A stretch of 64,000 nucleotides of DNA. Origin: Alcaligenes faecalis (lineage in GTDB: Bacteria > Pseudomonadota > Gammaproteobacteria > Burkholderiales > Burkholderiaceae_B). Made by a program: the position numbers and the translations under genes. The notes beneath the pieces are model-generated. The model made no database searches. It saw nothing but the letters and a program-made list of their open reading frames with translations, and was not told the DNA's origin. Shown piece after piece: positions 3,361 to 19,855 of the stretch. How positions within the stretch are numbered: the first letter of the stretch is position 1; the number at the start of each line of letters is the position of its first letter. The stretch is taken from contig NZ_CP023667.1 of NCBI RefSeq assembly GCF_002443155.1, positions 2,356,001 through 2,420,000 on the forward strand. Reading direction: 5' to 3'.

Positions 3361-3462
3361 TCCTTCACCTGCGGGTAAGGCGGCCGCACGGGCCTGCGCG
3401 GCTCCTTGCAAGGGCCGACAGCGCACACAAGGTGCACCGCCTGCCCTTGTCTGGAACCTGAT

Positions 3463-4134
3463 ATGGATTGGTTAAGTTACAGCTCGGCCCTGATGGAAGG
3501 GGCCTGGGTCACCATACAGCTCACGCTGTATTCAACCGTAGTGGGAGCGATCGCCTCCTTTGCCTTGGGCATAGGCAGGCTGTCCCACTCGGTGGCCCTG
3601 CGCTCACTGTCCATCACGATTATTGAAGTTTTTCGCGGCACCTCTTTATTGGTACAGCTGTTCTGGCTGTACTTTGCCCTGCCTATTCTGGGCGAGTCCA
3701 TGGGTCTGGACTGGCGCCTGGACCCGGTCGTGGCCGGCACCCTGGCCCTGGGCCTGAACATTGGCGCCTATGGTGCGGAAGTAGTACGCGGAGCCATTCA
3801 GGCTGTACCGCACTCTCAACTGGAAGCCGCCAAGGCCCTGGACTTTACCGAGCGCCAGACCTTGTGGCGCATCAGCCTGCCCCAGGCCATCCCCGAGATG
3901 ATGCCCAGCTTCGGGAATCTGGCCGTACAAAATCTGAAAGATACGGCCCTGGTCTCTTTGATCAGCCTGGGGGACTTGAGCTTTAGAGCTGAACAAATAC
4001 GCAACTTCACCCAGGACAGCACCACTATCTACACCCTGCTCTTGCTGATGTACTTTGGCATGGCACTGGTGCTGACAGTTCTGATGAAATTGCTGGAACG
4101 CGCAACCGGCCGCTGGCGCGCGCAAAGGAGCTGA
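3463..4134 (+). CDS. ehuC: ectoine/hydroxyectoine ABC transporter, permease EhuC
   Basis: Inner-membrane permease of the His/Glu type; forms the translocation pore with EhuD. It has 223 residues. The start is the ATG at 3463 (MDWLSYS), with GGAA about 6 nt upstream; an upstream in-frame start at 3406 would add 19 polar residues without similarity. Family segments are EVFRGTSLLVQLFWLYF and GLNIGAYGAEVVRGAIQAV, and the EAA loop reads EAAKALDFTERQTLWRISLP. The gap to ehuB is 102 bp and ehuD starts 2 bp after the stop. Confidence 0.87.
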   Translation: MDWLSYSSALMEGAWVTIQLTLYSTVVGAIASFALGIGRLSHSVALRSLSITIIEVFRGTSLLVQLFWLYFALPILGESMGLDWRLDPVVAGTLALGLNIGAYGAEVVRGAIQAVPHSQLEAAKALDFTERQTLWRISLPQAIPEMMPSFGNLAVQNLKDTALVSLISLGDLSFRAEQIRNFTQDSTTIYTLLLLMYFGMALVLTVLMKLLERATGRWRAQRS

Positions 4135-4136
4135 AC

Positions 4137-4829
4137 ATGCTGTTTGGTATTGAATGGGACACCAGCAGCAACGGAGCATTTGCGCTGTCTATCCTGCCTA
4201 TTCTGCTTAAAGGCTTGTGGGTCACCATACAAGCCGCCGTACTGGGCTTTGGGGTGGCCGCTATCCTGGGACTTATCCTGGCCGGCCTGAAAAGCGTGCG
4301 CCTGCGCCTGATTTCCTGGCCCGCCTATGTGCTGACCGAATTCCTGCGCGACACGCCTTTGCTGGTGCAATTGTTTTTCCTGTACTACGTGCTGCCGGAC
4401 TACGGCATTGTGCTGCCCGCCTTCCTGACCGGCGCACTGGCGCTGGGGGTGCAGTACAGCGCCTATCTGTCCGAGGTCTACCGCGCAGGTCTGGAATCCG
4501 TCACCCACGGCCAGACTGAAGCGGCCCGCGCGCTGGATATTTCTCCGCTGCGTACCTTTATGGTCATCACCCTGCCCCAGGCTATCCCACGCATCATCCC
4601 GGCCATGGGTAACTACCTGGTGTCCATCATGAAGGACGTGCCCGTACTCTCTGTCGTATCGGTGCTGGAAGTCCTGAACGTGGCCAAGATTATTGGTGAC
4701 CGCACCTTTAACTACATCATTCCCCTGTCCATGGTGGGCGGCCTGTATCTGCTGCTGACCCTCCTGGCTTCCGCTGGGGTACGAGCGCTGGATCAGCGTT
4801 TGCCCAAGCAAGGAATTCCCCTGCGATGA
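4137..4829 (+). CDS. ehuD: ectoine/hydroxyectoine ABC transporter, permease EhuD
   Basis: Second permease subunit, 230 residues with about five membrane helices. It shows [22 protein letters not shown], the EAA loop [20 protein letters not shown] and the [19 protein letters not shown] segment characteristic of EhuD. The start has AAAGGAG 6 nt upstream, inside the end of ehuC. Its last four bases overlap the ehuA start (ATGA), which implies translational coupling. Confidence 0.87.
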
Positions 4830-5611
4830 CTGACACAACAAGCCCCATCATTCAATTTGACAATGTCACCAAGAAGTTTGGTGATGTCACCGTCCTGGAC
4901 GCCTTGAACTTTCAGGTGGAGCCGGGTGAGAAAGTCACTATCATCGGCCCTTCCGGTTCTGGTAAATCCACCGTGCTGCGCATCCTGATGACACTGGAAA
5001 CCATCGACGAAGGCGTCATTACCGTGGCCGGCAAGCCCCTCTGGCATGAGCGGGTCGATGACAAACTGGTACCCGCCAGCCAGAATCACCTGCGCGAAAT
5101 GCGCAAGGAAATGGGCATGGTGTTCCAGCAGTTCAACCTGTTTCCGCACATGACGGTGATGCGCAATGTCACCGAAGCGCCTACCCATGTGCTGGGCCTG
5201 TCCAAAGAACAGGCACGCGAACGGGCTACCAAATATCTGGATCTGGTGGGCCTGATCGACCATGCCGACAAATTCCCCAGCCAGCTCTCCGGCGGGCAGC
5301 AACAACGTGTGGGGATTGCTCGGGCCCTGGCCATGGAACCGAATATTCTGCTATTTGACGAGCCTACCTCGGCCCTGGACCCGGAGCTGGTCGGTGAAGT
5401 GCTGGGCGTCATTCAAAAGCTGAGTCAAGAACAGGACCTGACGATTCTGCTGGTGACCCACGAAATGCAATTTGCCAAGGAAGTCTCAGACCGCGTCTGC
5501 TTCTTTGATAAAGGCGTGATCGTGGAATCCGGCCCGCCCGAACAAGTATTCTGCAACCCGCAGGAAGCACGAACGCAGGCGTTCTTGAGCAACTTTATTC
5601 AAGCGGCCTGA
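4826..5611 (+). CDS. ehuA: ectoine/hydroxyectoine ABC transporter, ATP-binding protein EhuA
   Basis: Cytoplasmic ATPase that powers the Ehu importer; 261 residues. Walker A is GPSGSGKST near residue 39, the signature is [16 protein letters not shown], and Walker B is [13 protein letters not shown]. The insertion carrying [20 protein letters not shown] and the run [16 protein letters not shown] are typical of EhuA. It ends the four-gene operon. No strong terminator follows in the 273-bp gap to the convergent gene. Confidence 0.9.
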
Positions 5612-5884: not shown

Positions 5885-7540
5885 TCAATACAGCTTTTTC
5901 TGAGGTGGGCCTGAAAAACGTAGTGGTCCGATGCTAGCCATATCCACTTCGACCACCGAGGGGCCTTGATGCTCAATGGCCTGCTTCACCACTGTTTTGA
6001 ATTCGTCCAAGGACGACACCAGATACGCCTGGCACCCCATCGCCCGACCCACATCACGATAGCTAGGTGTGTGCAGCTGGTTGTAATACTGCCGATCTTC
6101 AAAGTAGCGCTTCTGTATGCCGCGCATCACGCCATAGCCGCCGTCATTCATCACCAGCAAGACCAGGTTGCTTTGCTCTTGCACCATCGTGGCCATTTCA
6201 CCAATACCCAGCATCAAGCCCCCATCACCCACCAAGGCCACCACCTTCTTGTCCAGGTTCGCTTTGGCCGTACCGATCGCGTGTGCCAGCCCCAAGCCGA
6301 TCGCCCCTGCCAAGGAGTGGATGTTTTGCAAGGGGGCTTGTACAGGGAACAGCCGACTGCCCCAGGTACTTCCGGACATGGTGATATCGCGCACCAGGAT
6401 CGCATCTTCAGGCATGGCAGCACGCAGGGCAAAGCATAGCTCGGCATATGGCCCCAACTGTTCAGTCAATTGGAGTATGGCGGCTTCACGGGCCTGGGTA
6501 ATCGCGGCATCATAGTCCGCATCGATAAAGCTGCAGCCCTGCAGATCTTGCACCAAGGCTGTCAGGGCTTCATTGGCCTCTGCGCAGACGAACTGGCTGA
6601 TGGCGTAGTTTCGCTGTTGTGCAGCCGGGTTCGCATCAATTTGCAGGGTGTTGGCAGGAAACTGTATGGAATAGGTTTTGGTTTCATTGCTGCGCAAACG
6701 CGAACCGACCACCAAGACCAAATCCGCGTCGGCCAACAGCGTTTCCACTTCGGCGGTATTGTGAAATGCACCCAAACTACGAGGGTGACTATCTGCCAGG
6801 ACGCCACGTGCATGTGTAGACGACACCACTGGAATCCCCATATCCGCCAACTGACGGACGGCTTTACCCGCTTTCAGGGTTCCCCCCCCTATCCAGAGCA
6901 TGGGACGTTTTGCGGCTTTAACGGCTGCGGCCAGTCGGGCTCTGTCGCGCTCTTGCAAAGCAGGCAATTGCAAGGGGGCGGCCGGCTCCAGGGAGACAGG
7001 CCAGGCTATGTGTGCAGCCTGCACATCGATAGGAATCTCGACACTTACCGGCCCCATGGGAACGGTAGTCGCAACGCGTATGGCCTCTTGAATCATGCCC
7101 ACCGCGTTCTCCGGGCTGGTGATGCGATACGCGGCTTTACTGGACGCGCGCAAGAAACCCAACTGATCTTTGGCTTCATGAATGAAACTGGCATCTCTAT
7201 CCAGATACTCACGTTCAACTTGGCCCGTCAAATGCAGCACAGGGCTGGCAGCATTGCAGGCTTCGATAAGCGAGCCCACGGCATTGCCGGCCCCCGCCCC
7301 CGTGCTGGTCAAGGCCACGCCCAAACCAGTGAAACGCGATTCTGCGTCGGCCATGGTGACGCTACCCGCCTCGCCCCTGGCGCATACAAACTGCACCTGC
7401 TTGCGGCGGCCCAGCGCATCGGCAATGGGCAAATTGTGAATGGAAATCACGCCATACACATTGCGTACCTGGTGGCTCTCCAACACACGGGCAATGGCCT
7501 CACCCACGGAAATGGTTTCTGTCATGTTTGTGTCTCTCAT
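5885..7540 (-). CDS. thiamine-diphosphate-dependent enzyme, acetolactate synthase/2-oxoacid decarboxylase family
   Basis: Probable 2-oxoacid decarboxylase or carboligase using thiamine diphosphate; 551 residues with the three-domain layout of the family. The activating glutamate is Glu57 in CARGEAGSV. The cofactor motif starts GDGGLMLG at residue 438 and closes at MNDGGYG. No acetolactate-synthase small subunit is nearby and the N-terminal GVISIHNLP region departs from anabolic synthases, so a catabolic decarboxylase is more likely. Its ATG at 7540 overlaps the stop of the upstream aldehyde dehydrogenase by four bases. It is the last gene of the 5.9-14.7 kb cluster. The substrate cannot be told from sequence. 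Confidence 0.82.
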   Translation of the reverse strand: MRDTNMTETISVGEAIARVLESHQVRNVYGVISIHNLPIADALGRRKQVQFVCARGEAGSVTMADAESRFTGLGVALTSTGAGAGNAVGSLIEACNAASPVLHLTGQVEREYLDRDASFIHEAKDQLGFLRASSKAAYRITSPENAVGMIQEAIRVATTVPMGPVSVEIPIDVQAAHIAWPVSLEPAAPLQLPALQERDRARLAAAVKAAKRPMLWIGGGTLKAGKAVRQLADMGIPVVSSTHARGVLADSHPRSLGAFHNTAEVETLLADADLVLVVGSRLRSNETKTYSIQFPANTLQIDANPAAQQRNYAISQFVCAEANEALTALVQDLQGCSFIDADYDAAITQAREAAILQLTEQLGPYAELCFALRAAMPEDAILVRDITMSGSTWGSRLFPVQAPLQNIHSLAGAIGLGLAHAIGTAKANLDKKVVALVGDGGLMLGIGEMATMVQEQSNLVLLVMNDGGYGVMRGIQKRYFEDRQYYNQLHTPSYRDVGRAMGCQAYLVSSLDEFKTVVKQAIEHQGPSVVEVDMASIGPLRFSGPPQKKLY

Positions 7541-9003
7541 CCTTCACACCATGGATCAGGCTGTGTACTCAGCCCCATATAAATACTTTTTTGCTGCATG
7601 TACGACAAAATACTCAGCCTGCCTTTCTCCCTGCCCACGCCGCTTTCTTTAAAACCGCCAAAGGGTGTGGAGATAGAGAATTTCTTGTAGGTATTAATCC
7701 AGACCGTGCCTACATCCAGTGCTCGGGCCAGTTGCCAAGCCTTGCGGTAGTTTTCAGTCCAAAGGCCGGCGGCCAAGCCGTAGACACTGTCATTGGCTTG
7801 CTGCAACAAGTCGTGCTCGTCCTCAAACGGCAATACCACCAGCACGGGGCCAAAGATCTCTTCCTGGCACACGCTGGCCCGGTTACCGAGCCCGGCAATA
7901 ATGGTGGGGGCGTAGTAATTGCCTTGCGCCAGATCACCCTCGGTCAGACGGTACCCACCAACTACAATCTGCCCGCCCTCCTGTTCGGCGCGTCGCACGT
8001 AGGCGTCAACCGAATTCAAGTGTTTCTCGTCTATCAGTGGGCCAACTTGAGTCGCGGCGTGCTCGGGATGCCCCACACGCAGCGCTTGTGTTTTAGCGAC
8101 CAAACGCTGCATAAAGGCCTCATACACGTTTGCGTGTACAAACAAGCGCGCACCGGCGATGCAAGCCTGCCCCGAGGAACTGAAAATGCCGTAGATCACC
8201 CCATTTACGGCCAGATCCAGATCGGCATCCTCCAACACCACCGTCGGCGACTTGCCTCCCAGCTCCAGGGAGGTACCAATCAAGCGCTCTGCTGCAATAT
8301 GAGCCAGCTGACGTCCTGTGCTCGTCCCGCCTGTGAAGGAAATTTTCTTCACCAGTGGATGCTGCACAATGGCATTGCCCACGACTGAACCTTTACCCGG
8401 TAACACGCTTAGCAAGCCGGGAGGCAGCCCCGCTTGCTCAAACAGGCGCGCCAGTTCCAAGGCGATCAAGGATGTCGCTTCGGCTGGTTTCAAGATCACG
8501 GCATTACCCGCTGCCAAAGCGGGTGCCAGTTTTTGCACTTCAGAGGCAATGGGCGAGTTCCAGGGTGTGATGGCGGCCACCACCCCCAAGGGCTCATGCA
8601 CACTCATGGTCAACCACTCTCTGGACCGGGCATTGGTCAGCTCTGTATCCAGGGTTTCCAGACACGCGGCGGTATAACGGGCCGTGGCGGCAGCACTCAT
8701 CACCAAACCACGCGTTTCTGCCAGCGGTTTGCCGTTGTCTCTTGTTTGCAAAGCTGCCAGCTCGGCCACATTTTGCTCGATCAGATCGGCCACTTTATAG
8801 AGCACCCGAGCCCGCTCCACGGGCAAGCTATCGCGCCAGGAGGGCTCTTGCCAGGCCCGGTGCGCGGCTTGAACGGCCTCTTGCACATCTTCCAGGCTGG
8901 CGGTAGAAAACTCGGCATTCACGCTACCGTCTGCTGGAAAAATGCTGCGCGCAACCGCCCCCCGGCCTTGCCGCCAATGGCCGGCCAAAAATAATGCTTT
9001 CAT
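7537..9003 (-). CDS. NAD(P)-dependent aldehyde dehydrogenase
   Basis: Oxidises an aldehyde to the carboxylate; 488 residues, the usual length of the ALDH superfamily. The cofactor fold includes LAAGNAVILKPAE and FTGGTSTGRQLA. The general base is Glu247 in LELGGKSP and the nucleophile is Cys281 in SSGQACIAGAR. The downstream neighbour is a TPP-dependent decarboxylase, so the pair could turn a 2-oxoacid into an aldehyde and then an acid. The two genes overlap by four bases. Substrate unknown. Confidence 0.9.
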   Translation of the reverse strand: MKALFLAGHWRQGRGAVARSIFPADGSVNAEFSTASLEDVQEAVQAAHRAWQEPSWRDSLPVERARVLYKVADLIEQNVAELAALQTRDNGKPLAETRGLVMSAAATARYTAACLETLDTELTNARSREWLTMSVHEPLGVVAAITPWNSPIASEVQKLAPALAAGNAVILKPAEATSLIALELARLFEQAGLPPGLLSVLPGKGSVVGNAIVQHPLVKKISFTGGTSTGRQLAHIAAERLIGTSLELGGKSPTVVLEDADLDLAVNGVIYGIFSSSGQACIAGARLFVHANVYEAFMQRLVAKTQALRVGHPEHAATQVGPLIDEKHLNSVDAYVRRAEQEGGQIVVGGYRLTEGDLAQGNYYAPTIIAGLGNRASVCQEEIFGPVLVVLPFEDEHDLLQQANDSVYGLAAGLWTENYRKAWQLARALDVGTVWINTYKKFSISTPFGGFKESGVGREKGRLSILSYMQQKSIYMGLSTQPDPWCEG

Positions 9004-9015
9004 GTTTTTCTCCGC

Positions 9016-9807
9016 CTAGATGACCAGGGCGTCACCCAGTTGATAGCAAGCGCGCACCACACTCAGTGCTGCCAAGGTGGACGTCTTAGGATTACTGGCT
9101 AAAGCGACGCCCTGCATTTCTATTTGCATCTCACCAAACGTTCCTTCGACACGGATACGATGCTGGTTTCGTGTCATGGCAGGATCAGCAATCAGCTCAA
9201 CCTGAGTTGCGTCCATGCCCACCCCTGCCAGGGCGATGGTCGCTGCCACGTTTGCATTGGCCGGAAACTTCTGTGCCGCCTCACGAGCCGAACCTCGGAA
9301 AAATACGGTCGCTTCGGTTAGCGCATCCAAATCGACCAATTGCTCGGCATAGCTGCCTTTCCAACTGGCTGGTTTTTTACGCCCTTGATACACCACACTA
9401 TCCAAACCCATTGTGCGTGCAGCGGCAATACCATCAACGCCCGCAATAGCGCCTGGCAAAATCTGTAGCTGTGCGCCCTGTGCAACCGCAAACTCACGTA
9501 TCTCCTGCTCAAACACACTGTCGGCAAACGCCCCCACCGAAATCACAGCCAAAGGCAATTGGCGCTGCAATACTGCTTTGGCATGGGCTTTCAAACCAGC
9601 TTGCCCGGCCATCTCCAACACCAGATCTGGCGTTCCCACCATGTCATCCACATGGCTGATCACTTGCACAGCAGGCCCCAGCTCTTGCTGCATGGCGGCC
9701 ACACCCGCTTCAGTGACAATCACCCATGCCAGTTCAATGGATTCAGGCAACAGGGCATGCACCGTTTTTGCCATGGCCCCATAGCCAATAAATGCTACTT
9801 TTTTCAT
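9016..9807 (-). CDS. L-aspartate dehydrogenase family protein
   Basis: NAD(P)-dependent amino acid dehydrogenase of the aspartate dehydrogenase family; 263 residues. The nucleotide-binding motif is GYGAMA at residues 8-13. Family segments GAIAGVDGI, FPANANVAATIALAG and the late NPKTSTLAALSV are present, as is an R-N-x-H motif near the expected catalytic histidine. Family members reversibly deaminate aspartate to oxaloacetate or iminoaspartate. In a catabolic cluster it may instead act on an amino-acid-like intermediate. It lies 12 bp downstream of the aldehyde dehydrogenase in coordinates and is transcribed just before it. Confidence 0.85.
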   Translation of the reverse strand: MKKVAFIGYGAMAKTVHALLPESIELAWVIVTEAGVAAMQQELGPAVQVISHVDDMVGTPDLVLEMAGQAGLKAHAKAVLQRQLPLAVISVGAFADSVFEQEIREFAVAQGAQLQILPGAIAGVDGIAAARTMGLDSVVYQGRKKPASWKGSYAEQLVDLDALTEATVFFRGSAREAAQKFPANANVAATIALAGVGMDATQVELIADPAMTRNQHRIRVEGTFGEMQIEMQGVALASNPKTSTLAALSVVRACYQLGDALVI

Positions 9808-9816
9808 CGTTCTGCC

Positions 9817-10611
9817 CTAAATTTCCTGACTAAACCCGCCAGACACGTCAATGACTGATCCCGTTGTATAGGAAGACAACGGCGACGCTAAAAACACCAA
9901 AGCCCGAGCCGCTTCCACAGGCTTGCCCAGACGTCCCATCGGTATGCCACGCTTGCGGGCAATGCCCGCCAGCCAATCCTCCCAGCTTTGATCAGGATCT
10001 GATCTATCCAGGTAGCGACGTTGCCACTGCCCGGACTCCACCATGCCAATCAAAATGGAGTTCACTCGAATGCCTGCAGCCACAAACTCTTTGGATAAAC
10101 CTTTGCTCAAATTCAACAAACCCGCTCTGGCGGCTGAAGTTGCCATCATGTGCGGTTCAGGTTTGTAAGCCAGCAAGGAGTTCACATTGGCGATGGACGC
10201 AATGCTTGACTGGCGCAGATACGGCAAGGCGGCCCGCACGGGATTTAACACACTGAAGTACTTCAGCTGCACTTCCCGTATCCACTCTTCATCCGAGGTG
10301 TCTTCAAAGCTGGCAACTTTTCCCTGGCCCGCATTGTTGATCAGCATGTCCACACCGCCGAAACGCTGCGCTACCTGCTCAATAAATTGTTTGATGGCAT
10401 CCGCATTCAACACGTCGCAACACTGTATATACAGACGATCCGACTCAAAACAGGCCGCCATTGTTTCCCAGGAATCCTGCAGGCGCCCGGAATCCCGTCC
10501 GCACCAGGCGACGTATGCGCCTTGCTCAAGCAATAGTCGTACGGTTTCCAGACCTATGCCTGAAGAGCCTCCCGTCACGACGGCCACTTTGCCGCTAACT
10601 TGAAAACTCAT
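9817..10611 (-). CDS. SDR-family oxidoreductase with atypical active site
   Basis: Short-chain dehydrogenase/reductase fold, 264 residues. The cofactor motif TGGSSGIG is at residues 13-20 and NNAG at 92-95. The catalytic serine is present (Ser145), but counting Ser+13 and Ser+17 puts Thr158 and Arg162 where the Tyr and Lys of YxxxK belong (segment ATSAARAGLL). It ends YTTGSVIDVSGG, as SDRs normally do. I recall SDR paralogs with an ATSAARAG segment, so this may be a subfamily trait rather than decay. Its ATG overlaps the stop of the upstream hydrolase by four bases. Confidence 0.85.
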   Translation of the reverse strand: MSFQVSGKVAVVTGGSSGIGLETVRLLLEQGAYVAWCGRDSGRLQDSWETMAACFESDRLYIQCCDVLNADAIKQFIEQVAQRFGGVDMLINNAGQGKVASFEDTSDEEWIREVQLKYFSVLNPVRAALPYLRQSSIASIANVNSLLAYKPEPHMMATSAARAGLLNLSKGLSKEFVAAGIRVNSILIGMVESGQWQRRYLDRSDPDQSWEDWLAGIARKRGIPMGRLGKPVEAARALVFLASPLSSYTTGSVIDVSGGFSQEI

Positions 10612-11435
10612 ATGCTGCTCTCCTTCTTGTCCTGCTCGGCATGGCCAAAGACCAGGCGATCAAATAGCGCAGGTTGATCCACGTACAGCAAATGGCCAGC
10701 TTGCGGCACTGCCTGCAATTTCAGCCGTGGGTAACTGTGCTGTAAGGCCTGCATCCCGGCAGGTGGAGTAATGCCATCCTCTGTGCCGTACAAAACCTCT
10801 ATGTCACCTTGAATACTCGGCAGGTAATCATCAATGCTGTCGTACGCCAAGAGATAGGAAGACGCTTGGAATCCCTCCAGACGCAGTCGTTTCATTGCCT
10901 GCGTCACCATCTGCATGTTTTCGGGTGTCACTTGCCCCAACAGAAACGGCCCACGCTCTTGCGCCATGGCTTCCGGGCCCAGCGCTTCGAGCAGTCGTGG
11001 ACGTTTCTCGTATACCTGCCTTTGCTGCTCTGCCGAGGTTTTGCCATAGCCCTGTGCCACACTGGCCAACACCAAACGTGACACATCCTCCGGATACAGC
11101 GAGGCATAGGCAGTGGCCATCAATGCGCCCAAGGAATGCCCCACCAGCGTGAAGGCGGGCAAGCCCACCTCCTGCACCAAGGTTCTCAGTGCCTGAGCGT
11201 AATCAGCAGCGCTAGGGGTGGCTGAGGCCAAAGCGACACTGTCGCCATAGCCCGGCGCATCCCAGGCTATCAGCCGGTTTTTCCCCGCTTGGCTTGCAAA
11301 CTGCTTGGCCCACAAACCCGCAGCCGAACTGATGCCGTGCAGCAAGACGTACACATCGCCTTGCTGCTCCCCGTTATCCCAATAAGACAGGCCAGAAGCC
11401 GTCTTACGCATCGCACCCTGTGTGCTCAATGGCAT
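10608..11435 (-). CDS. alpha/beta-fold hydrolase
   Basis: Hydrolase of about 275 residues related to C-C-bond hydrolases and esterases. It has the oxyanion segment LLHGISSAAGLW, the nucleophile elbow GHSLGA, an acid in YGTEDGITPP and the late histidine in PQAGHLLYVDQP, so a complete Ser-Asp-His triad. I start it at 11435 (MPLSTQGAM), which has GGAGG 6 nt upstream; the frame is open to 11492 but that extension is polar and lacks a ribosome site. It lies between the ABC permease and the SDR in one transcript. Substrate unknown. Confidence 0.85.
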   Translation of the reverse strand: MPLSTQGAMRKTASGLSYWDNGEQQGDVYVLLHGISSAAGLWAKQFASQAGKNRLIAWDAPGYGDSVALASATPSAADYAQALRTLVQEVGLPAFTLVGHSLGALMATAYASLYPEDVSRLVLASVAQGYGKTSAEQQRQVYEKRPRLLEALGPEAMAQERGPFLLGQVTPENMQMVTQAMKRLRLEGFQASSYLLAYDSIDDYLPSIQGDIEVLYGTEDGITPPAGMQALQHSYPRLKLQAVPQAGHLLYVDQPALFDRLVFGHAEQDKKESSI

Positions 11436-11463
11436 GTTTTGCCTCCTACTTTCGTGCGATGGC

Positions 11464-12228
11464 TTATTTCTTGGCCGCTTTTGCCGACTCATGCCAAGGG
11501 ATCACGACTTTACGCAGTGAACCAACGGTGAAATACAGCACGAAACCAATCATCGCCAAAAGGATTACAACGGCAAACAAGGTATCCACTTCCAGATCCT
11601 GCAGCTTGATGGTGGCCAAGTAGCCCAGACCACGCGAACCGGCCACAAACTCAGACACCACGGCACCAATAATGGCCAGCACAATTGCCATCTCCATACC
11701 CGTCAGGATGTAAGGCAAGGAGGCAGGGATCACCAGCAGTTTGAAGCGCTGCCAGGTGCTTGCCTTGCCCACCTGAAACACTTCAATCAAACCCGTATCG
11801 ACAGACTTGGCCCCCAGATAACTATTGGAGAAAACCGGAAAGAAAGCCAATAGCGCCGAGATGATGATCTTGGATTCGATTCCAAAACCAAACCACAAAA
11901 TGAACAGGGGAATCAGCGCCACTTTAGGCGTCAGCTGCAAGGCGATCACAAAGGGTTTGAAGATCGTGTCCAGGATGGCGATCCGTCCCAGCAACTGCCC
12001 CAGCAAGGTTCCCACAATGACTGCGATACAAAAGCCTCCCAGGCACTCGGCCAAGGTGGTGTAGATGTGATAGTAGGTATCATCGCGCTGCATCAGCCGC
12101 ACCAGGGCGTGCACCACATCTTCCGGTGGGGGCAAGACCAGGGGGGACACGTCAAAACCACTGACATAGGCTTTCCAGAGCAGGAAAAACACCAGCACGG
12201 AAATGATTTGAATAAGTAGACGATTCAC
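11464..12228 (-). CDS. ABC transporter permease, NitT/TauT (SsuC/TauC) type
   Basis: Inner-membrane permease of the nitrate/sulfonate/taurine/pyrimidine-precursor class; 254 residues with about six helices. Family features are LVLPPPEDVVHALVRL near the start, LTPKVALIPLFILWFGFG, and the EAA-like loop near IEVFQVGKASTWQRFKLLVIP. The start codon is GTG at 12228, immediately after the stop of the ATPase gene, with GGAG 8 nt upstream. It works with the ATPase and binding protein encoded just upstream. Ligand unknown. Confidence 0.87.
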   Translation of the reverse strand: MNRLLIQIISVLVFFLLWKAYVSGFDVSPLVLPPPEDVVHALVRLMQRDDTYYHIYTTLAECLGGFCIAVIVGTLLGQLLGRIAILDTIFKPFVIALQLTPKVALIPLFILWFGFGIESKIIISALLAFFPVFSNSYLGAKSVDTGLIEVFQVGKASTWQRFKLLVIPASLPYILTGMEMAIVLAIIGAVVSEFVAGSRGLGYLATIKLQDLEVDTLFAVVILLAMIGFVLYFTVGSLRKVVIPWHESAKAAKK

Positions 12229-13035
12229 TTACAACTCCAGATGCTGACGCAGTTCATCACATAGACGGGCAAACTCGGGATCACCCAAAAAGTTTGTGCG
12301 CGGACGCTCCAACGTAATAGGAATTTCGGCTACCACACGTCCCGGGCGCGCCGACATCACAATGACCCGATCCGCCAAGTGCACCGCTTCACTGATAGAG
12401 TGCGTAATCAGGAAAGCACCAAATTTCTGATCCATCCAGATACGCTCTGCATCAGCGATGATTTTTTCCCGGGTCAAGGCATCCAATGCCCCAAACGGTT
12501 CATCCAGCAGCAATAAATCGGGCTGGGAAAACAGGGCGCGCGCAAAAGACGCCCGTTGGCGCATCCCACCGGACAGCTCGGCCGGGCTCTTGGTTTCAAA
12601 GCCTTTCAACCCCACCATGTCGCATAGCAACAGCGCCCGCTGTTCATCCTCAGCGCTGTAACTGCCCGCTTGCATCAACTTGGGCAGCAGGATATTTTTC
12701 TGGATATTCATCCACGGCAAAAGTCGGTGCTCTTGAAATGCCACACCGATATCGGGCGTTTTCTTGTCGGCCGTAGCGGGCCAGTTCACCTGACCGGAGG
12801 TGGGCTGTTCCAAACCACATAACAAGCGCAGCAAGGTGGACTTGCCGCAGCCTGATGGACCAATTACTGCCACAAACTCACCGGCCATGATGTGCTGATT
12901 GATGTCTTGCAAAGCAATGGTCGTACCGGTAGAGGTCTTGAAATGCTTGGAGACACGGTCAAAACGAACGATGGGCGGTGCGTCAGTGGACGGTTTTTTT
13001 GCTAGCTCAGACAACGGTAGACTCCCAGATGGCAT
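12229..13035 (-). CDS. ABC transporter ATP-binding protein, NitT/TauT (SsuB/TauB) type
   Basis: ATPase of the importer; 268 residues if started at 13035. Walker A is GPSGCGKST, the signature [15 protein letters not shown] and Walker [13 protein letters not shown]. The ATG at 13035 overlaps the binding-protein gene by 29 bp and lacks a ribosome site. A TTG at 13014 (eighth codon) has GGGAG 7 nt upstream and overlaps by only 8 bp, so it may be the real start. The SsuB-like sequence fits a transporter of small organic anions. Confidence 0.88.
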
Positions 13036-14017
13036 TGGTATAGAGCTGTCTGGAGGTTTCCTTCATCAGACCGGCACCCTGCAACAAGCGAGTCGCTTCA
13101 TCCCACTGTTCGGGCACATTACGCAAGACATTTTCTTTACCGTGCGCCAACCACAACTCACGGTTGCCTTTCAGGTCACCCAGCGCAATATCTTCTTTTT
13201 CAATACCTGGCACATCAAAACGACGCGCAATCGTGCGAATGACTTCCAGCAGTTGCGCATCGTCCATATCCGCCATCGCCAAGATCGCCGAGCGGGTGCC
13301 TTGCAAAAATGCGACGTGCTGCTCGCGGTTGGATTCCAGATCCTCTTCACTGGCCACATAGACTTGACCAGGCACACCGTCGTCTACAGGCAGCGCCACC
13401 AAAGGCAGTTCGGCAGCACGCAGGCGCGATACCGTGCTGGCATTGCCAAAAAATGCGGCAATACGGCCCGCCTCCACCATCGCGAACGACGCCGGACCGT
13501 CAGCAACACGCTCACGACGCACCGACTTGGGGTCCACACCTGCTTTGGCCAGCATCAAGTTCAAGGTGGCCTCCATAGAACCACCGAATGACGCCACGCC
13601 AACCACTTTCCCTGCCAGTTCTTTCACGTCCCGAACTGGGTGGCTCTGGGAAGAAATCACCACAAACGGTGAAATCTGTGACACCGTGCCAAAGGCCAGA
13701 ACATCGGAGTTGTCTTGGGCGCGCGCAGACAGATAATTGGCGCCACCGGTGCGGCCAGCTTCTACCTGCTTGGCGGCAACCAGCTGTATGGCCTGACCGG
13801 CCCCCCTGCCCACTTCTACTTTGACGTTCACATCCAGTTTGTCGAAACCACCCGACGCGCTGGCATACAAGACGGGCGCGAAGGCCAGGGACAGCGTGAA
13901 AGGGGTCAGGTACGTGTAGGTCCCCTTTGCCTTGGCAAAGGCCACGCTGGCGCTCAGGGGCAAACTCATTGCCCCCAAGGCGCCGGCGCTATAAACCAGA
14001 AATTTCCTGCGGTTCAT
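13007..14017 (-). CDS. ABC transporter substrate-binding protein, NMT1/THI5/SsuA-like
   Basis: Periplasmic binding protein of 336 residues. The N-terminus MNRRKFL followed by a hydrophobic stretch ending near SVAFAKA suits a signal peptide; the RRKFL start could be a Tat signal but lacks the full twin-arginine consensus. The body resembles SsuA/TauA/ThiY proteins ([41 protein letters not shown]). It is the first transporter gene in the cluster and lies 23 bp downstream of the cupin gene. The ligand is unknown; it should be the imported substrate of the pathway. Confidence 0.85.
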
Positions 14018-14040
14018 ATGGAATCGCTCCTTGATAGGAT

Positions 14041-14652
14041 TTAGGTGGGCTGCTTGTTTTGCGCAGCGGCCTTTGCCTGCATACGCAGCTTCTTGGCGGC
14101 AGTCAGCGGATGGTCTTCGGGATAGTCAGGCAAATCAGGCCGGTTCGCCCCCAGCATCACGCACATCAAGGACTCTTCTTGACCCTCATTGCGCAAACCG
14201 CGGTACACACCCGGTGGCACCGAAATAACGTCACGTTCGTTCAAGACAACTTCGCAACGCTCTCCCTTGTATTCCAGGAACAGACGGATACTGTCGCCGC
14301 GCAAAATGAAAAATGCTTCCTCAACGTCGTGGTGCACATGCAAGGGGCCTTCACAACCAGCAGGCAAGATCATGGTGGAAAACGTGAAATGCTCTGCCGG
14401 AATGACGTTGTCGTCATGGGTTACGCCTGCTGCTCCTGTGCCGATGTAGCGAGTTTGCGCTCGACGGTACGTCGGGTTCACCTCTGCTTGCCAACCCAGT
14501 GCATTCCAATCGTACTGACGGCTTTTGCGGCGAGCGATGCGTGATTCAATCCACTCTTGCAAACTCTTGTCCTGTGGACGCTTCCAGCTCGCAAACAGAG
14601 GAGATTCCTGATCGGGAACCGGCACAATTTGTTCTGTTGTCGTATCACTCAT
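14041..14652 (-). CDS. cupin-domain protein
   Basis: Single-cupin protein of 203 residues. The metal-binding motif is intact: HVHHDVEEAFFILRG supplies H-x-H, the glutamate and the following glycine, with the second motif (VPPGVYRGLRNEG) about 30 residues later where a third histidine is replaced by Tyr/Arg. It could be a dioxygenase, isomerase or sugar/acid-binding sensor. The start at 14652 (MSDTTTEQ) has AAAGGAAAG 3-11 nt upstream; the frame is open to 14673. It is the first gene after the porin and may share its transcript. Confidence 0.82.
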   Translation of the reverse strand: MSDTTTEQIVPVPDQESPLFASWKRPQDKSLQEWIESRIARRKSRQYDWNALGWQAEVNPTYRRAQTRYIGTGAAGVTHDDNVIPAEHFTFSTMILPAGCEGPLHVHHDVEEAFFILRGDSIRLFLEYKGERCEVVLNERDVISVPPGVYRGLRNEGQEESLMCVMLGANRPDLPDYPEDHPLTAAKKLRMQAKAAAQNKQPT

Positions 14653-14686
14653 GACTTTCCTTTCTACTCCCAAAACATCAAATCAA

Positions 14687-15736
14687 TCAAAATGAATGCT
14701 GCAGCCCAACACCGAGCTGGTGTTTGCGCTGTTTTTCGTCAATAAAGTGGTTGCGCACGCTGTACACGTTGCCCATCGCATACACGTTGGTGCGCTTGGA
14801 GAGTTGATAGCGGTAACCTGCTGCAAAACCGCCATTGTTCGAGAGCATGGCGCGCTGATAACTCAGCATGGCCGTCCCTCTTTTTCCAGCAGGAATGGAC
14901 GCACCGACCGTAAAGGCGCGATCTTTGTCGCCCCCTGTTTTCACATAGCCAGGCGCAGGGCTCAGGTTAATGTTGCGCTGCTCGTTATAGCCGCTGAACA
15001 AACGCACGACGCCAAAGTCATAAGACAAACCAAACTGCAGGTTTTGCGCCTTGCGATTATTACTATCTTTAATAGGATTCAAGCGCTCGTAGGTCAGCGC
15101 CGCCTTCAGGGGGCCATTGCTATAGCGCAAGCCAGCGGTCACAACACGATTGTTGTTGGATGAGCCAAAAGACTGCTCATCAGCAGTGGAAAAGCTATAG
15201 CCAATACCGGCTTCCAGCCCACCGACAATAGGCGTCTGATACGTCACCGCATTGCTCAAGCGACCATCTGCACCGTAGTCGCCGCTTTTATACCCGAAGG
15301 TAGAACCGATGCCGTTACCGGACCATGCCACGCCAAACGGGCTGGCAATAAAGGGCGTCCACGAATAGCCAAAAACAGTTTGCCGACCAAACTTCAGTTC
15401 ACCAAAACCGCCCTTGATTCCTAAGGTTGCTTGCCGTCCAAAGAGGCGGCCTTGGGTGGAGGTGCCGGTCGTCGTCAACAAGCCGCCTTCCATTTGGAAG
15501 GTCACGGAATAACCATTACCCAGGTCTTCACTGCCGCGGATACCAAAGCGCGATTGACCGGCAATCCCGCTGGCCATTCCAAACCTTCTGCTGTCATCCA
15601 ACTGTTTTTCCAGCAACAGGCCGCTGTCCAGCAAGCCGTAGAGCTGCACGCTGCTTTGCTGGGCCAACGCAGCGCCGTGCCCGGCACACGCCATGACCAA
15701 TACACCCGCTACTGCCCCCATTCGTCCTTTACTCAT
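14687..15736 (-). CDS. outer-membrane porin (Gram-negative general porin type)
   Basis: Trimeric beta-barrel porin like those of Bordetella, Neisseria and other betaproteobacteria; 349 residues. A signal peptide ends near Ala25-Gln26 (GAALAQ), followed by SSVQLYGLLDSGL, the usual first strand. FGRQATLGIKGGFGELKFGRQ is the family hallmark, and the chain ends in Phe (GLQHSF), required for barrel assembly. It heads the catabolic cluster, 34 bp before the cupin gene, so it probably brings the substrate across the outer membrane. Confidence 0.92.
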   Translation of the reverse strand: MSKGRMGAVAGVLVMACAGHGAALAQQSSVQLYGLLDSGLLLEKQLDDSRRFGMASGIAGQSRFGIRGSEDLGNGYSVTFQMEGGLLTTTGTSTQGRLFGRQATLGIKGGFGELKFGRQTVFGYSWTPFIASPFGVAWSGNGIGSTFGYKSGDYGADGRLSNAVTYQTPIVGGLEAGIGYSFSTADEQSFGSSNNNRVVTAGLRYSNGPLKAALTYERLNPIKDSNNRKAQNLQFGLSYDFGVVRLFSGYNEQRNINLSPAPGYVKTGGDKDRAFTVGASIPAGKRGTAMLSYQRAMLSNNGGFAAGYRYQLSKRTNVYAMGNVYSVRNHFIDEKQRKHQLGVGLQHSF

Positions 15737-15751
15737 CCCTTACCCTTTTCG

Positions 15752-15765
15752 TTTCACTAGTGAAA
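15752..15765. promoter_or_regulatory. perfect palindrome, candidate IclR-type operator
   Basis: TTTCACTAGTGAAA, a 14-bp perfect palindrome 16 bp upstream of the porin start and inside the 209-bp region shared with the divergent IclR regulator. IclR-family regulators bind short palindromes in such divergent regions, so this is the best operator candidate for the cluster. The assignment is by position and symmetry only. Confidence 0.4.
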
Positions 15766-15945
15766 TGCTGTTTTATATTAGGAACAGAAAGTATAAAATC
15801 ATTTAAACTTCGAGAGAAATGAGTAGAAACCCTTTAAGCATGAATCACTTCAGACGGGCACGCCGCCGTCTATCACAATAGCGGCGCCCACTCTTATACT
15901 TAGCCACATCAACCAAACCGCTGTGACCAACACCCAAGAGAGCTT

Positions 15946-16755
15946 ATGAGTACGACTTTGCCGGCACAACAAAACTACACCGTGCCAGGACTGGAGCGTG
16001 GCCTGCGCTTGTTGTTCGAATTCAACCGGAACGAGCAGACTTTGACGGCGCCCGAGCTGGCCAAAAGACTGGAGCTTCCCCGCACCACCACTTTCAGATT
16101 ATTGGCGACACTGGAAAATCTGGGCTTTGTACAGCGTGTGGAAGGTGGCCATACATATAAATTGGGCATGGCCATTTTGCGACTGGGGTTTGAGTATTTG
16201 GCTTCTCTGGAGCTAACCCAATTAGGAACACCGATCCTGGAGCGCGTACGTGATGAAACCGGGCTCTCGTGCAACTTGGCGATTCAAGATGAACATAGCG
16301 CCGTCATCATTAGCAAAGTGGCCGCCCCCACCCCATTTGTCAGCACCGTACATGTGGGCACCCGTTTGCCGCTGCATGCCACCCTGCTGGGACGGGTGCT
16401 GTTAAGTGATATGAAACCGGCGGATTTGCTGCAGCTGTACCCAGAAAACACACTGCCCAGATTTTCTGAGCGGACGCCTACGACCACGGATATGCTGTAC
16501 GAACTCATCCGCCAAGATGCCGAGCGTGGCTATGGATACGACGAAGGGTATTTTGAGCCTGAAGTAGGCAGTGCAGCTGTCCCGATACGCAATAAGCAAG
16601 GACATATCGTGGCCGCACTGGGTGTGACGATCCCGGTCAGCTACTTGCGCTCCGGCAAGCTGGACACCTCATCCTTAGTCAATACTGTGCGCAGCGCTGC
16701 AACAGAACTGTCCCAACTACTGGGTTATCACAGCAGCGAGTCCTCGACCAGATAA
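15946..16755 (+). CDS. IclR-family transcriptional regulator
   Basis: DNA-binding regulator of 269 residues. The N-terminal winged helix-turn-helix spans about residues 12-75 (LERGLRLLFEFN to TTFRLLATLENLGFVQRV), and the C-terminal IclR effector domain about 85-260 (GLSCNLAIQDEHSAVIISKV, GYGYDEGYFEPEVGSAAVPI). It is divergent from the porin and catabolic cluster, the usual arrangement for a local activator or repressor responding to a pathway intermediate. The start ATG is preceded by AAGAGAG. Confidence 0.92.
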   Translation: MSTTLPAQQNYTVPGLERGLRLLFEFNRNEQTLTAPELAKRLELPRTTTFRLLATLENLGFVQRVEGGHTYKLGMAILRLGFEYLASLELTQLGTPILERVRDETGLSCNLAIQDEHSAVIISKVAAPTPFVSTVHVGTRLPLHATLLGRVLLSDMKPADLLQLYPENTLPRFSERTPTTTDMLYELIRQDAERGYGYDEGYFEPEVGSAAVPIRNKQGHIVAALGVTIPVSYLRSGKLDTSSLVNTVRSAATELSQLLGYHSSESSTR

Positions 16756-17213: not shown

Positions 17214-18140
17214 TCAGAACTCCAGCAGCGGTCCATTCAATGGCGTCAGGACAGGGAACTGCCCGCGAGTAGCCACATGCGCAGGACGAGGCGTCAGCCC
17301 CTGCTTGGGATCACCCACGCAGTTTTCCACGCTGTTATAGACCGTAAACACATTGGCTCGTGGCCAAGGCGAGATATTGCTGGCCGAGCCATGCAAGGTA
17401 TTGCAGTCAAAAAAGATCACCGAACCGGCCTTGGCAGTAATGGCTTCAATGCCGCCTTGATCCACCAGCAATCGCAGGCTGATTGGATCGGGCACGCCAT
17501 ACTCCTGCTTGCGCAAGGACTCCTTGTAATGGTTGTCCGGCGTTTGCCCCGTGCAAGAGATGAACTGGCGGTGCGAACCCGGCACCAGCATCAAGGGGCC
17601 ATTGCACACATTATTGTCAGTCAACAGCACCGAGCAGCTTAAGGCGCGCATTTGCGGCATGCCATCTTCGATATGCCAGGTCTCGAAGTCCGAATGCCAG
17701 TAAAACTCCTTGCCGGTAAAGCCCGGTTTCAGGTTGGCACGGGACTGATGCACATACACATCCGAGCCCAGAATCTGACGGGCCACATCCAGCACGCGCG
17801 GATCACGTACCAGGCGGGCAATCAGTTCGCTTAATTCATGCACACGAAAGATCGAGCGCACGGCCTGACTGCCTTTTTCCACCACAGCCTCTTCACGCGA
17901 CAAGATGCCGGGGTCCGTGCTCATGGCTTCCACATTGCCCAGCAAGGCTTGCACTTCCTGCGCATTGAACAAATCGGGCAGCAGCAAAAAGCCGTTGTCC
18001 TCATACTCCCGCAACTGGGACTTGTTCAAAGGCTGGCTACCTACCGGATCCGGATACACCACCGGCTCCTGGCGGCTGACGATGGCCGCCGTTCGTTCTG
18101 TACGGGATGTGTACAGATCGCTCATGGTCACTGTCATCAT
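17214..18140 (-). CDS. ectD: ectoine hydroxylase EctD
   Basis: Fe(II)/2-oxoglutarate-dependent dioxygenase that converts ectoine to 5-hydroxyectoine in the cytoplasm; 308 residues, close to the family's about 300. The EctD signature is intact: FYWHSDFETWHIEDGMP carries the iron-ligating His and Asp, and the third ligand is in CNTLHGSASN. LMLVPGSHRQFISC is also typical. Two adjacent ATGs occur (18140, 18137); AAGGAG is better spaced for the second. It ends the ect operon and starts 15 bp after ectC. Confidence 0.96.
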   Translation of the reverse strand: MMTVTMSDLYTSRTERTAAIVSRQEPVVYPDPVGSQPLNKSQLREYEDNGFLLLPDLFNAQEVQALLGNVEAMSTDPGILSREEAVVEKGSQAVRSIFRVHELSELIARLVRDPRVLDVARQILGSDVYVHQSRANLKPGFTGKEFYWHSDFETWHIEDGMPQMRALSCSVLLTDNNVCNGPLMLVPGSHRQFISCTGQTPDNHYKESLRKQEYGVPDPISLRLLVDQGGIEAITAKAGSVIFFDCNTLHGSASNISPWPRANVFTVYNSVENCVGDPKQGLTPRPAHVATRGQFPVLTPLNGPLLEF

Positions 18141-18155
18141 GCTCTCCTTAAGTCT

Positions 18156-18548
18156 TCAGTCTTCCACGATGGCTGGGTAAACCCCTTTCTCATCGTGAAC
18201 TTCCTGACCGGTCAAGGGCGGATTGAATACGCAGATCACTCGCAGCGGCTCTTTGCCACCGCGCAGATAGTGTTCGTCGTGCTGGTCCAGGGCATAGACC
18301 ACGCCTGGGCCCAAATCGTATTTCTTGCCGTCGGCAACGGTTTCGATTTCACCATCGCCCTCGATGCACCACACCGCTTCCAGGTGATTCTGGTAGTGGA
18401 TGTGCGTTTCGGTGCCAGGAAAAATAACGGTTTCATGAAAGGAAAAACCCATGCCGTCTTTCTTGAGCAAGACACGGCGGCTGACCCAGGTATCTGTGCG
18501 CACCTCGTCACGGGTTCCAATCACATCTTGTACGTTCTTCACCAACAT
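18156..18548 (-). CDS. ectC: L-ectoine synthase EctC
   Basis: Cupin-fold cyclase that closes N-gamma-acetyl-diaminobutyrate to ectoine; 130 residues, the standard length. The start [16 protein letters not shown] matches the EctC N-terminus; the frame is open to 18605 but that part overlaps ectB. Metal-site and core residues appear in [20 protein letters not shown], and the C-terminal [17 protein letters not shown] is diagnostic. The ATG shares one base with the ectB stop (TAATG), so translation is probably coupled. Confidence 0.97.
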
Positions 18549-19855
18549 TAGCGTGCTCCTCCAATCTTCAGAATCTTGGCCTGGCTGCCGCGCTTGGACA
18601 GGCACTGGGCCACGCTGCGTTCAATAATGTCCAGACCTTGAGTCAGCTCTTCATTGCTGATCGTCAGCGCCGGCAGGAGCTTCAGAACTTCGTCGTGAGC
18701 GCCCGAGGTTTCAATGACCAGACCCTGCTTGAACGCCTGTGCGGCAATTTCATTGGCCAGGCCAACACCCGGTGGCGTCACCAGACCTTGAATGAGGCCA
18801 CGACCACGCACACTCAAGCCACGATCGGGGTAGCTGTGCACCAGGTTTTCCAGCCAGTCGCGTACTTGACGCTCTTTGCCCTGGATCTCGGCTTCAAAGT
18901 CCTCGTTGGCCCAGTAGCTTTCCAGGGCTTGAGCCGCTGTCACGAAAGCCAGGTTATTGCCACGGAAGGTGCCGTTATGCGCGCTGGGTTTCCACACATC
19001 CAGTTCAGGCCGCAGCAGAACCAGGGACATGGGCAAACCAAAGCCGGACAGGGATTTGGACAAGGTGATGATGTCAGGACTGATACCGGCCTGCTCAAAG
19101 CTGAAGAAACGGCCAGTCCGGCCGCAACCGACTTGAATGTCATCGACAATCAGCAGCATGTCGTGCTCGCGGCACAGACGCTGCAACTCACGCAGCCAGC
19201 GCTGTGTGGCAACGTTCACGCCCCCTTCACCTTGCACGGTTTCCACGATGACCGCGGCAGGATGGTCCAGGCCACTGCTGGGATCTTCCAGCAAGCGCTC
19301 CAGATAAGCCATCGTATTGACGTCCGGGCCCAAATACCCGTCATAAGGCATGAACGAGGTATTGCCCAGGGCCACACCCGCTGCACTACGGAACTTGGAG
19401 TTCGCCGTCACTGCCAGGGAACCCGTGCTGACGCCGTGGAAACCGTGCGTAAAGGAAATCACATTCTGGCGGCCTTTGACCTGGCGTGCCAGTTTTAACG
19501 CCGCCTCTACGGCATTGGTGCCGGTAGGCCCCGTAAACTGCAAGCGGTAGTCCCACCCGCGCGGTTTGAGCAGCACTTTGTCCACCGTTTCAAGAAAGTA
19601 TTTCTTGGCGCTGGTGGCCATGTCCAAACCGTGTACCAAGCCGTCGGTGTTCAGGTATTCAATCAGCTTTTCTTTCAGATGAGGGTTGTTGTGCCCATAA
19701 TTGAGCGTACCGGCCCCACTGAAAAAATCGATGTATTGTCTGCCTGACTCGTCCTCCAAGACCGAGCCTCGGGCTTTGTTGAAAATGACCGGAAAGGACC
19801 GGACGTAGCCCCTTACTTCAGACTCCATCCGGTCGAATATTTTTAAGTCAGTCAT
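18548..19855 (-). CDS. ectB: diaminobutyrate--2-oxoglutarate transaminase EctB
   Basis: PLP-dependent class III aminotransferase that makes L-2,4-diaminobutyrate from aspartate semialdehyde and glutamate; 435 residues. It begins [17 protein letters not shown], as EctB proteins do. The substrate loop [18 protein letters not shown], the cofactor segment [12 protein letters not shown] and the PLP lysine in [11 protein letters not shown] are present. It starts 95 bp after ectA with GGAG 8 nt upstream of its ATG. Confidence 0.97.

Follow-up and report, generated by a model that had tools for sequence, protein, structure and literature searches.

What compound is broken down by the products of a tightly packed operon in Alcaligenes faecalis, and at which point of a pathway does it take over? 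The question is raised by a stretch of 64,000 nucleotides (positions 2,356,001 to 2,420,000 of contig NZ_CP023667.1, hereafter the window) from a genome that consists of a single contig of 4.08 Mb. The operon lies on the minus strand at 5885–15736 and comprises nine genes for enzymes and transport plus a porin gene, with a divergent gene for an IclR-family regulator beside it at 15946–16755 on the plus strand. An initial annotation of the locus had counted eight enzyme and transport genes, one too few, but was right about the porin, the divergent regulator and the tight packing: four-base overlaps join the genes of the thiamine pyrophosphate (TPP) enzyme and the aldehyde dehydrogenase (ALDH) at 7537–7540 and those of a short-chain dehydrogenase/reductase (SDR) and an alpha/beta-hydrolase at 10608–10611, and at the other junctions the genes overlap or lie no more than about 30 bases apart. 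On the basis of sequence comparisons, we regard this operon as an oxygenase-less version of a recurrent gene set that is predicted to degrade aromatic rings. The parent substrate of that set is probably of the kynurenate type, and the operon seems to belong to a pathway whose genes apparently have not been assigned before.

A recurrent core and its oxygenase-bearing relatives

A scan for the aspartate dehydrogenase (AspDH) of the operon returned 17 named loci, every one of which holds genes for a cupin, the hydrolase, an SDR, the AspDH, an ALDH, and the TPP enzyme. The complete gene order of the window (porin, cupin, periplasmic binding protein, ATPase, permease, hydrolase, SDR, AspDH, ALDH, TPP enzyme) is retained in Alcaligenes pakistanensis and three loci of the Paenalcaligenes group (L006–L009). 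Since this order is retained and the six-enzyme core is present in 17/17 loci, the operon is not a chance grouping. Profile matches and recurrence elsewhere thus bear out the earlier proposal of a conserved catabolic-type cluster in which an importer, a hydrolase, an amino-acid dehydrogenase, a TPP enzyme, and an ALDH stand beside an IclR gene, and the comparison across genomes that had been suggested as a check found the cluster genes recurring together. The layout of four loci (L096, L104, L107, and L108) presumably also agrees with the order of PA3504–PA3514 in Pseudomonas aeruginosa.

What had been overlooked are relatives with Rieske and extradiol-type dioxygenases, which suggest the chemistry. 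In 13 of the 17 loci (12 from Acinetobacter and one from Paenalcaligenes hominis) the core is preceded by genes for a Rieske ferredoxin, a small helix-turn-helix-type protein, a Rieske oxygenase (RO), a second SDR, a two-domain extradiol-type dioxygenase (VOC), a ferredoxin reductase, and a carrier of the major facilitator superfamily (MFS). Similar sets with MFS or ATP-binding cassette (ABC) carriers were found in Klebsiella, Caballeronia, Burkholderia, Cupriavidus, and Novosphingobium. In Paracoccus, Pseudosulfitobacter, and Nitratireductor the cupin of such a set is a different, longer protein, and a distant occurrence was found in Streptomyces. Core, RO, and VOC genes share one cluster in Acinetobacter (L012/L013), Klebsiella (L023), Caballeronia (L024), Burkholderia (L129), and Streptomyces (L133); in Paracoccus (L131) RO and VOC also stand with the core, but the cupin is different. 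The RO is accompanied by a ferredoxin and a reductase in L010, L013, L023, L024 and others, and its nearest solved relatives are phthalate 4,5-dioxygenase and carbazole dioxygenase. Three VOC residues that we take to be metal ligands (His156, His215, and Glu266) are invariant in the eight proteins compared.

The likeness to these clusters goes beyond enzyme families. The window TPP enzyme shares 68–71% identity with four cluster copies of Acinetobacter and P. hominis, the AspDH and the cupin share 57–63% and 59–60%, respectively, with the RO-type copies of the same taxa, and the relative gene order is the same. This bears on the possibility that the operon degrades an unrelated small anion (a sulfonate, phosphonate, or aspartate derivative) and has only enzyme families in common with the aromatic clusters. 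Sulfopyruvate-type decarboxylases are TPP enzymes, which would suit such a substrate, and the permease, ATPase, and binding protein (here called SBPii) belong to the same families as the NitT/TauT-type importers SsuABC and TauABC and resemble Ssu, Tau, and Sao systems. However, all transporter scores fall below the curated cut-offs, and SBPii reaches 37 bits against SsuA_fam, where 163.5 are required, so that it does not qualify as a sulfonate/taurine importer component. Given the identities to the RO-type copies and the confinement of SBPii in the family to genomes with an operon-type TPP gene (18/18), we consider a small anion improbable.

A further tblastn scoring of gene families covered 74 loci that match the TPP enzyme (12–32 kb each, near-copies included; L007 and L090 come from one genome, as do L010 and L089), and the module counts were tallied by hand. 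Distant TPP enzymes without the cluster accounted for 11 loci, and the remaining 63 carry further cluster genes. An AspDH gene is present in 56 of these, accompanied by the hydrolase in 55 and by a cupin of either kind in 53, whereas none of the seven loci without AspDH has a hydrolase or cupin within the stretch analysed. Because AspDH, hydrolase, and cupin co-occur in this way and are absent jointly, they move together as one module, with a second module made up of RO, second SDR, VOC, SDR, TPP enzyme, and ALDH. Two genomes (G432 and G434) hold the modules at separate places, with cupin, hydrolase, and AspDH adjoining window-type porin, SBPii, and ABC genes and with RO, SDR, TPP, ALDH, and VOC elsewhere. 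The porin is retained beside the cupin and SBPii in loci of the window type.

Another candidate for the parent substrate was our initial idea, since demoted, that the substrate of the RO/VOC clusters is a monocyclic aromatic bearing an amino-acid side chain (of the 2,3-dihydroxyphenylalanine type) and that the hydrolase would release aspartate after meta-cleavage, much as succinate is released by MhpC. As in mhp/bph-type meta-cleavage, the relatives have an RO, a dihydrodiol-type SDR, a VOC, and an alpha/beta-hydrolase; the VOC resembles HpaD and catechol 2,3-dioxygenases, the hydrolase is weakly like meta-cleavage hydrolases and has an intact triad, and the specificity of the AspDH for C4 compounds would fit. 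Yet the clusters carry a TPP enzyme, ALDH, cupin, and AspDH in place of the hydratase, aldolase, and acetaldehyde dehydrogenase, and no hydroxypentadienoate hydratase/aldolase is annotated in the relatives' clusters inspected, with incomplete gene tables for the plasmids. Clusters with RO, VOC, SDR, TPP, and ALDH but without the hydrolase also exist (L091–L093, L100, L105, and L106), and a monocyclic substrate of this kind appears quite improbable. A gene of the fumarylacetoacetate-hydrolase family lies at the edge of L127.

Distribution and descent of the oxygenase-less form

We surveyed 268 genomes of the family for the TPP enzyme (E 1e-120), VOC (E 1e-60), and SBPii (E 1e-60), scoring the best few candidates per genome. 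TPP matches were obtained in 40 genomes, 33 of them with at least 550 bits, a cut that was set after seeing a gap between 497 and 560 bits, which weakens the counts built on it; the seven weaker matches are accompanied by neither VOC nor SBPii. All 25 genomes with VOC and all 18 with SBPii are among the 33, and 11 have both. Of the eight genomes with the TPP gene and without VOC, seven have SBPii, and the eighth (G578) is only 86% complete. Fisher tests on these co-occurrences are extreme but ignore descent, and the phylogenetic non-independence of the counts tells against leaning on them heavily.

The oxygenase-less operon was thus found in the window and in six other genomes of the family. 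Within the genus Alcaligenes the TPP gene is present in two of the ten genomes searched (including that of the window), so that the operon is patchy. Orthologues of RO and VOC were absent from all six of the seven oxygenase-less genomes that were profiled (best scores of 85–116 bits for RO and 0–102 bits for VOC), whereas four of four positive genomes reached at least 573 and at least 424 bits with the same profiles. The window genome (G000) has no VOC orthologue and only distant Rieske proteins and does not qualify for a complete kynurenate pathway; its operon is filed only as like the lower part of one. In a tree of 54 TPP sequences the oxygenase-less form requires at least two changes, forced by well-supported branches, although several long branches elsewhere were flagged as unsure. 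The clade of the window groups with the RO-type P. hominis and then with Acinetobacter, and two oxygenase-less genomes (G405 and G623) fall elsewhere among RO-type relatives. P. hominis has, besides its RO-type cluster, a separate set of IclR, porin, cupin, binding protein, and ABC genes on another contig. In P. niemegkensis (L009, 3998–14002; L166, 5985–15746) the genes for the TPP enzyme, the hydrolase, and the porin each fall into two frames, and relatives hold intact copies; this copy of the operon looks decayed or poorly sequenced.

Proposed pathway and imported compound

Kynurenate and xanthurenate are neuro- and immunoactive metabolites of tryptophan, and a bacterial route for the removal of kynurenate has reportedly been described since 1961. 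In this scheme, said to derive from the extract work of Hayaishi and Taniuchi between 1961 and 1963 and to be drawn on the KEGG tryptophan map, kynurenate is dioxygenated at positions 7 and 8, dehydrogenated, and cleaved by 8,8a extradiol fission to 5-(3'-carboxy-3'-oxopropenyl)-4,6-dihydroxypicolinate. The later steps are reportedly a reduction, a decarboxylation to the formylethyl compound, an oxidation to the carboxyethyl compound, and a ring hydrolysis. RO-type clusters hold an enzyme of each class that the scheme needs, and their enzyme types and order fit it. The pathway is known from extracts, however, and the window operon is without its first three enzymes.

It had been stated earlier that no described pathway uses this gene set. 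We indeed found no published pathway for it, nor any paper assigning genes to kynurenate ring degradation or describing the cluster, in the open-access literature searched (subscription journals lay mostly outside), and the main text of a paper on an A. baylyi metabolic model contains no occurrence of kynuren-, quinal-, quinolin-, or tryptophan. Since the fuller gene set fits the scheme from the 1960s, the statement may nevertheless hold only at the level of genes. For PA3505, a transposon sequencing paper reports essentiality in three of four host-like media; a table there lists the gene under nicotinate metabolism, and the text speaks of a hypothetical pyrimidine gene. These statements count neither for nor against our interpretation.

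From the observed gene set, its modules, the conserved catalytic-type residues, and the distribution of VOC or SBPii we infer a parent substrate, an order of steps, an imported compound, and products. In the relatives, RO, dihydrodiol dehydrogenase, and VOC would turn kynurenate into 5-(3'-carboxy-3'-oxopropenyl)-4,6-dihydroxypicolinate, and in a variant acting on xanthurenate a flavin monooxygenase (FMO) would take the place of the first two. The SDR would then reduce the side chain of the ring-fission product, the TPP enzyme (a predicted 2-oxo-acid decarboxylase) would remove CO2 from the reduced 2-oxo acid, and oxidation of the resulting aldehyde by the ALDH would yield 5-(2'-carboxyethyl)-4,6-dihydroxypicolinate. 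Opening of the pyridone lactam and cleavage of a C–C bond, the presumed tasks of cupin and alpha/beta-hydrolase, would give a C5 diacid (likely glutarate) and C4 iminosuccinate, which would retain the nitrogen; from the latter the AspDH would form aspartate, or oxaloacetate and ammonia in a further step. This would account for every carbon of kynurenate (C10 = CO2 + C5 + C4).

Four VOC clusters with an FMO and a gene for a tripartite ATP-independent periplasmic (TRAP) carrier but no RO (L027, L085, L086, and L116) all lack the dihydrodiol-type SDR as well, which is expected because the substrate would already be hydroxylated. The FMO of L029 resembles tropone 2-monooxygenase and 6-hydroxynicotinate 3-monooxygenase, and those of L085, L086, and L116 match it at 532–542 bits. 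As to the lower steps, Ser120, Asp239, and His267 of the hydrolase are invariant in 16/16 aligned cluster copies. The window cupin retains the HxH...E motif, and in its second cupin motif a His is replaced by Arg in alignments. The window AspDH has the Asp_DH_C and NAD-binding domains expected of EC 1.4.1.21 and conserves the residue aligned to His189 of 2dc1, which we take to be catalytic. Like KpnAspDH it carries a GxGxxA motif. According to PMC5554190, KpnAspDH has oxaloacetate/aspartate activity and prefers NADPH, and its relative activity does not exceed 5.5% when pyruvate, 2-ketoglutarate, glutamate, or alanine is offered. The primers given there encode both ends of the AspDH in Klebsiella cluster L023, as matched by eye. 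C4 specificity is thus on record for a cluster-type AspDH, the window protein being assigned by family; the proposed pathway agrees with this because ring hydrolysis would yield C4 iminosuccinate. The window protein is of the same family as KpnAspDH, DelAspDH, and PaeAspDH, with the aligned active-site His and the GxGxxA cofactor motif. In the part of PMC5554190 available, L-aspartate dehydrogenases are treated as tools and given no catabolic role.

In the window operon, porin and ABC system would bring in the ring-opened compound. Our tentative proposal, which we hold at slightly less than even confidence, is that the operon imports the ring-opened 4,6-dihydroxypicolinate 2-oxo acid of the kynurenate pathway and converts it to aspartate or oxaloacetate, a C5 acid, and CO2. 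More generally, we prefer an importer whose cargo joins the same pathway after the ring has been opened. As SDR, TPP enzyme, and ALDH are retained in all seven oxygenase-less genomes (with split frames in P. niemegkensis), the imported compound should lie above the decarboxylation step. Portions of the literature name 7,8-dihydroxykynurenate and the 3'-carboxy-3'-oxopropyl compound, and others report 5-(2'-carboxyethyl)-4,6-dihydroxypicolinate by untargeted mass spectrometry from pig faeces, chicken caecum, calf rumen, and mouse plasma. It is conceivable, if rather doubtful, that the operon is a dedicated cross-feeding system importing the kynurenate ring-fission product leaked by oxygenase-bearing neighbours, in which case the porin–cupin–ABC module would have been combined with the lower pathway in at least two lineages.

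Alternatively, the core may be the lower part of a kynurenate or quinoline-carboxylate pathway, and Alcaligenes may import the intact aromatic and open it with an unlinked, non-orthologous oxygenase. Importer, porin, and regulator are complete, and SBPii relatives (40 and 44% identity) adjoin the full RO/VOC clusters of Nitratireductor and Paracoccus. Distant Rieske proteins are also at hand. In P. suwonensis (L090, 626–1654, minus strand) one is encoded with a reductase gene about 7 kb beyond the TPP gene, a similar match of 115.5 bits lies on the operon contig of Alcaligenaceae bacterium 429 (G574), and the window genome encodes a 74% relative of the P. suwonensis protein more than 1.2 Mb from the operon. 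These matches reach 98–116 bits and 26–28% identity to the cluster ROs, the solved relatives nearest to the P. suwonensis protein include dicamba O-demethylase, and no such protein was found by tblastn in the window or in the L006, L099, and L102 stretches. We take it as a probable unrelated demethylase type, yet it keeps an unlinked oxygenase in play. Arguing the other way are the absence of a ring-cleaving VOC orthologue (other kinds of ring-cleaving enzymes were not searched for) and a candidate operator with one exact site in the genome, at the operon. Taken together, import of the intact aromatic seems unlikely.

Like the distant Rieske proteins, several further points weigh against import of the ring-opened acid and the kynurenate scheme behind it. 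The weak points of the scheme are the exact step of the cupin and the use of the SDR as a C=C reductase, SDRs that reduce a C=C bond not being the rule. To our knowledge the ring-opened compound is no established free nutrient, and the mass spectrometry reports are annotations of a later intermediate, not proof. On its short contig L098 carries an FMO without an RO and yet retains the dihydrodiol-type SDR, and no kynurenine-pathway genes were seen in the named annotated loci. The gene set is also uncommon: a phylum sample of 398 genomes gave TPP matches at E 1e-120 in 15, including that of the window, and a class sample of 369 in one, the window genome itself. Glutarate genes sought beside the L132 cluster did not materialise, the acyl-CoA dehydrogenase being best matched by acryloyl-CoA reductase and the CoA-transferase by oxalate, mesaconate, and glutarate types, all below cut-off. 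Finally, Horibata et al. 1961 are cited for the conversion of kynurenate by pseudomonads to glutamate, alanine, and organic acids. These products differ from the predicted aspartate and glutarate but can be reconciled with the predicted C5 + C4 split, as they too include a C5 skeleton, together with a C3 compound that a C4 acid could yield.

Under the cross-feeding reading, the two types of cluster taken together would provide the genes still lacking for the kynurenate pathway of the 1960s, with an FMO variant for xanthurenate. If the assignment to kynurenate is correct, gut and soil bacteria (Acinetobacter, Klebsiella, Paenalcaligenes, and Alcaligenes) would carry recognisable genes for kynurenate removal. 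Catabolic aspartate dehydrogenases, so far studied as tools, would gain a metabolic role, and the oxygenase-less form would represent genetically visible cross-feeding on a ring-cleavage product.

Features of the operon and observations on related loci

The features of the operon and its regulator are collected in Table 1. For the alpha/beta-hydrolase, comparison with L006 favours a start at about 11435 over 11492. None of the 25 NCBIfam models compared with the window ALDH reaches its cut-off, and its substrate is a putative one.

Table 1. Coordinates of the operon genes, the regulator gene, and the candidate operator in the window, with the profile matches or other grounds for each.
Feature	Position	Strand	Basis
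TPP-dependent enzyme, PRK07064 family	5885..7540	-	NF005470 800 bits (cut-off 495); Pfam TPP_enzyme N/M/C
Aldehyde dehydrogenase	7537..9003	-	PF00171 558 bits
L-aspartate dehydrogenase family enzyme	9016..9807	-	NF009828 382 bits (cut-off 177)
SDR, PRK07062 family	9817..10611	-	NF005468 420 bits (cut-off 266)
Alpha/beta-hydrolase	10608..11492	-	PF00561
ABC permease, NitT/TauT-like	11464..12228	-	PF00528; best NCBIfam SaoP, SsuC, TauC, each below cut-off
ABC ATPase, NitT/TauT-like	12229..13035	-	PF00005; best NCBIfam SaoA, NtrCD, aliphatic-sulfonate ATPase, each below cut-off
Periplasmic binding protein SBPii, NMT1/SsuA-like	13007..14017	-	PF09084 78 bits
Cupin	14041..14673	-	PF07883; start more likely about 14652
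Outer-membrane porin	14687..15736	-	Open reading frame; by eye and similarity to annotated porins
Palindrome TTTCACTAGTGAAA with flank, candidate IclR operator	15751..15766	.	Matching palindrome-like sites in L006, L007
IclR-family regulator, PcaR/PobR-like	15946..16755	+	PF01614, PF09339; TIGR02431 170 bits (below cut-off 285)

The palindrome between the porin and regulator genes is a candidate IclR operator. The pattern has its only exact site in the genome there and one further site at one mismatch, compared with two for the reversed control pattern. SBPii had no match at E 1e-5 among sequences of solved structures, and its model (predicted local distance difference test, pLDDT, 58.5) was too poor to suggest a ligand from the fold. 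Its N-terminus carries the motif NRRKFL, which we take to be twin-arginine-like. The fold of the window cupin was likewise uninformative about function, its AlphaFold2 model (mean pLDDT 69.8) giving generic cupins as structural matches. In the alphaproteobacterial loci L029, L087, L088, L131, and L132 a longer cupin (315 residues in L029 and L131) replaces the short one, and two copies compared with NCBIfam had no match.

Among the relatives, the AspDH gene of the Klebsiella cluster L023 (10737–11502) is split in two frames and absent from the gene table, in a record that is labelled a plasmid yet measures 5.37 Mb. A RidA-family gene (46 bits, below cut-off; a family of imine/enamine deaminases) lies near the RO gene of Caballeronia M1242 (L126, 4321–4737), consistent with an imine intermediate. 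Xanthine-dehydrogenase-like genes near L025 and L095, considered as a quinaldate 4-oxidoreductase, gave generic family scores that are suggestive only. The genome G593, which contains L095, has 50 Rieske and 15 VOC matches, with AspDH, cupin, and a second TPP gene elsewhere (L095). Clusters of genus g243 combine RO, VOC, SDR, TPP, and ALDH without AspDH, and in L092 a gene for a VOC like biphenyl-diol dioxygenases lies nearby (1730–2680).

By eye, a polar amino-acid-type ABC importer with two permeases and an ATPase lies to the left of the window operon in convergent orientation (3406–5611, plus strand). To the right of the IclR gene, translations at 17214–18605 on the minus strand point to EctD- and EctC-like genes of an ectoine/hydroxyectoine operon.

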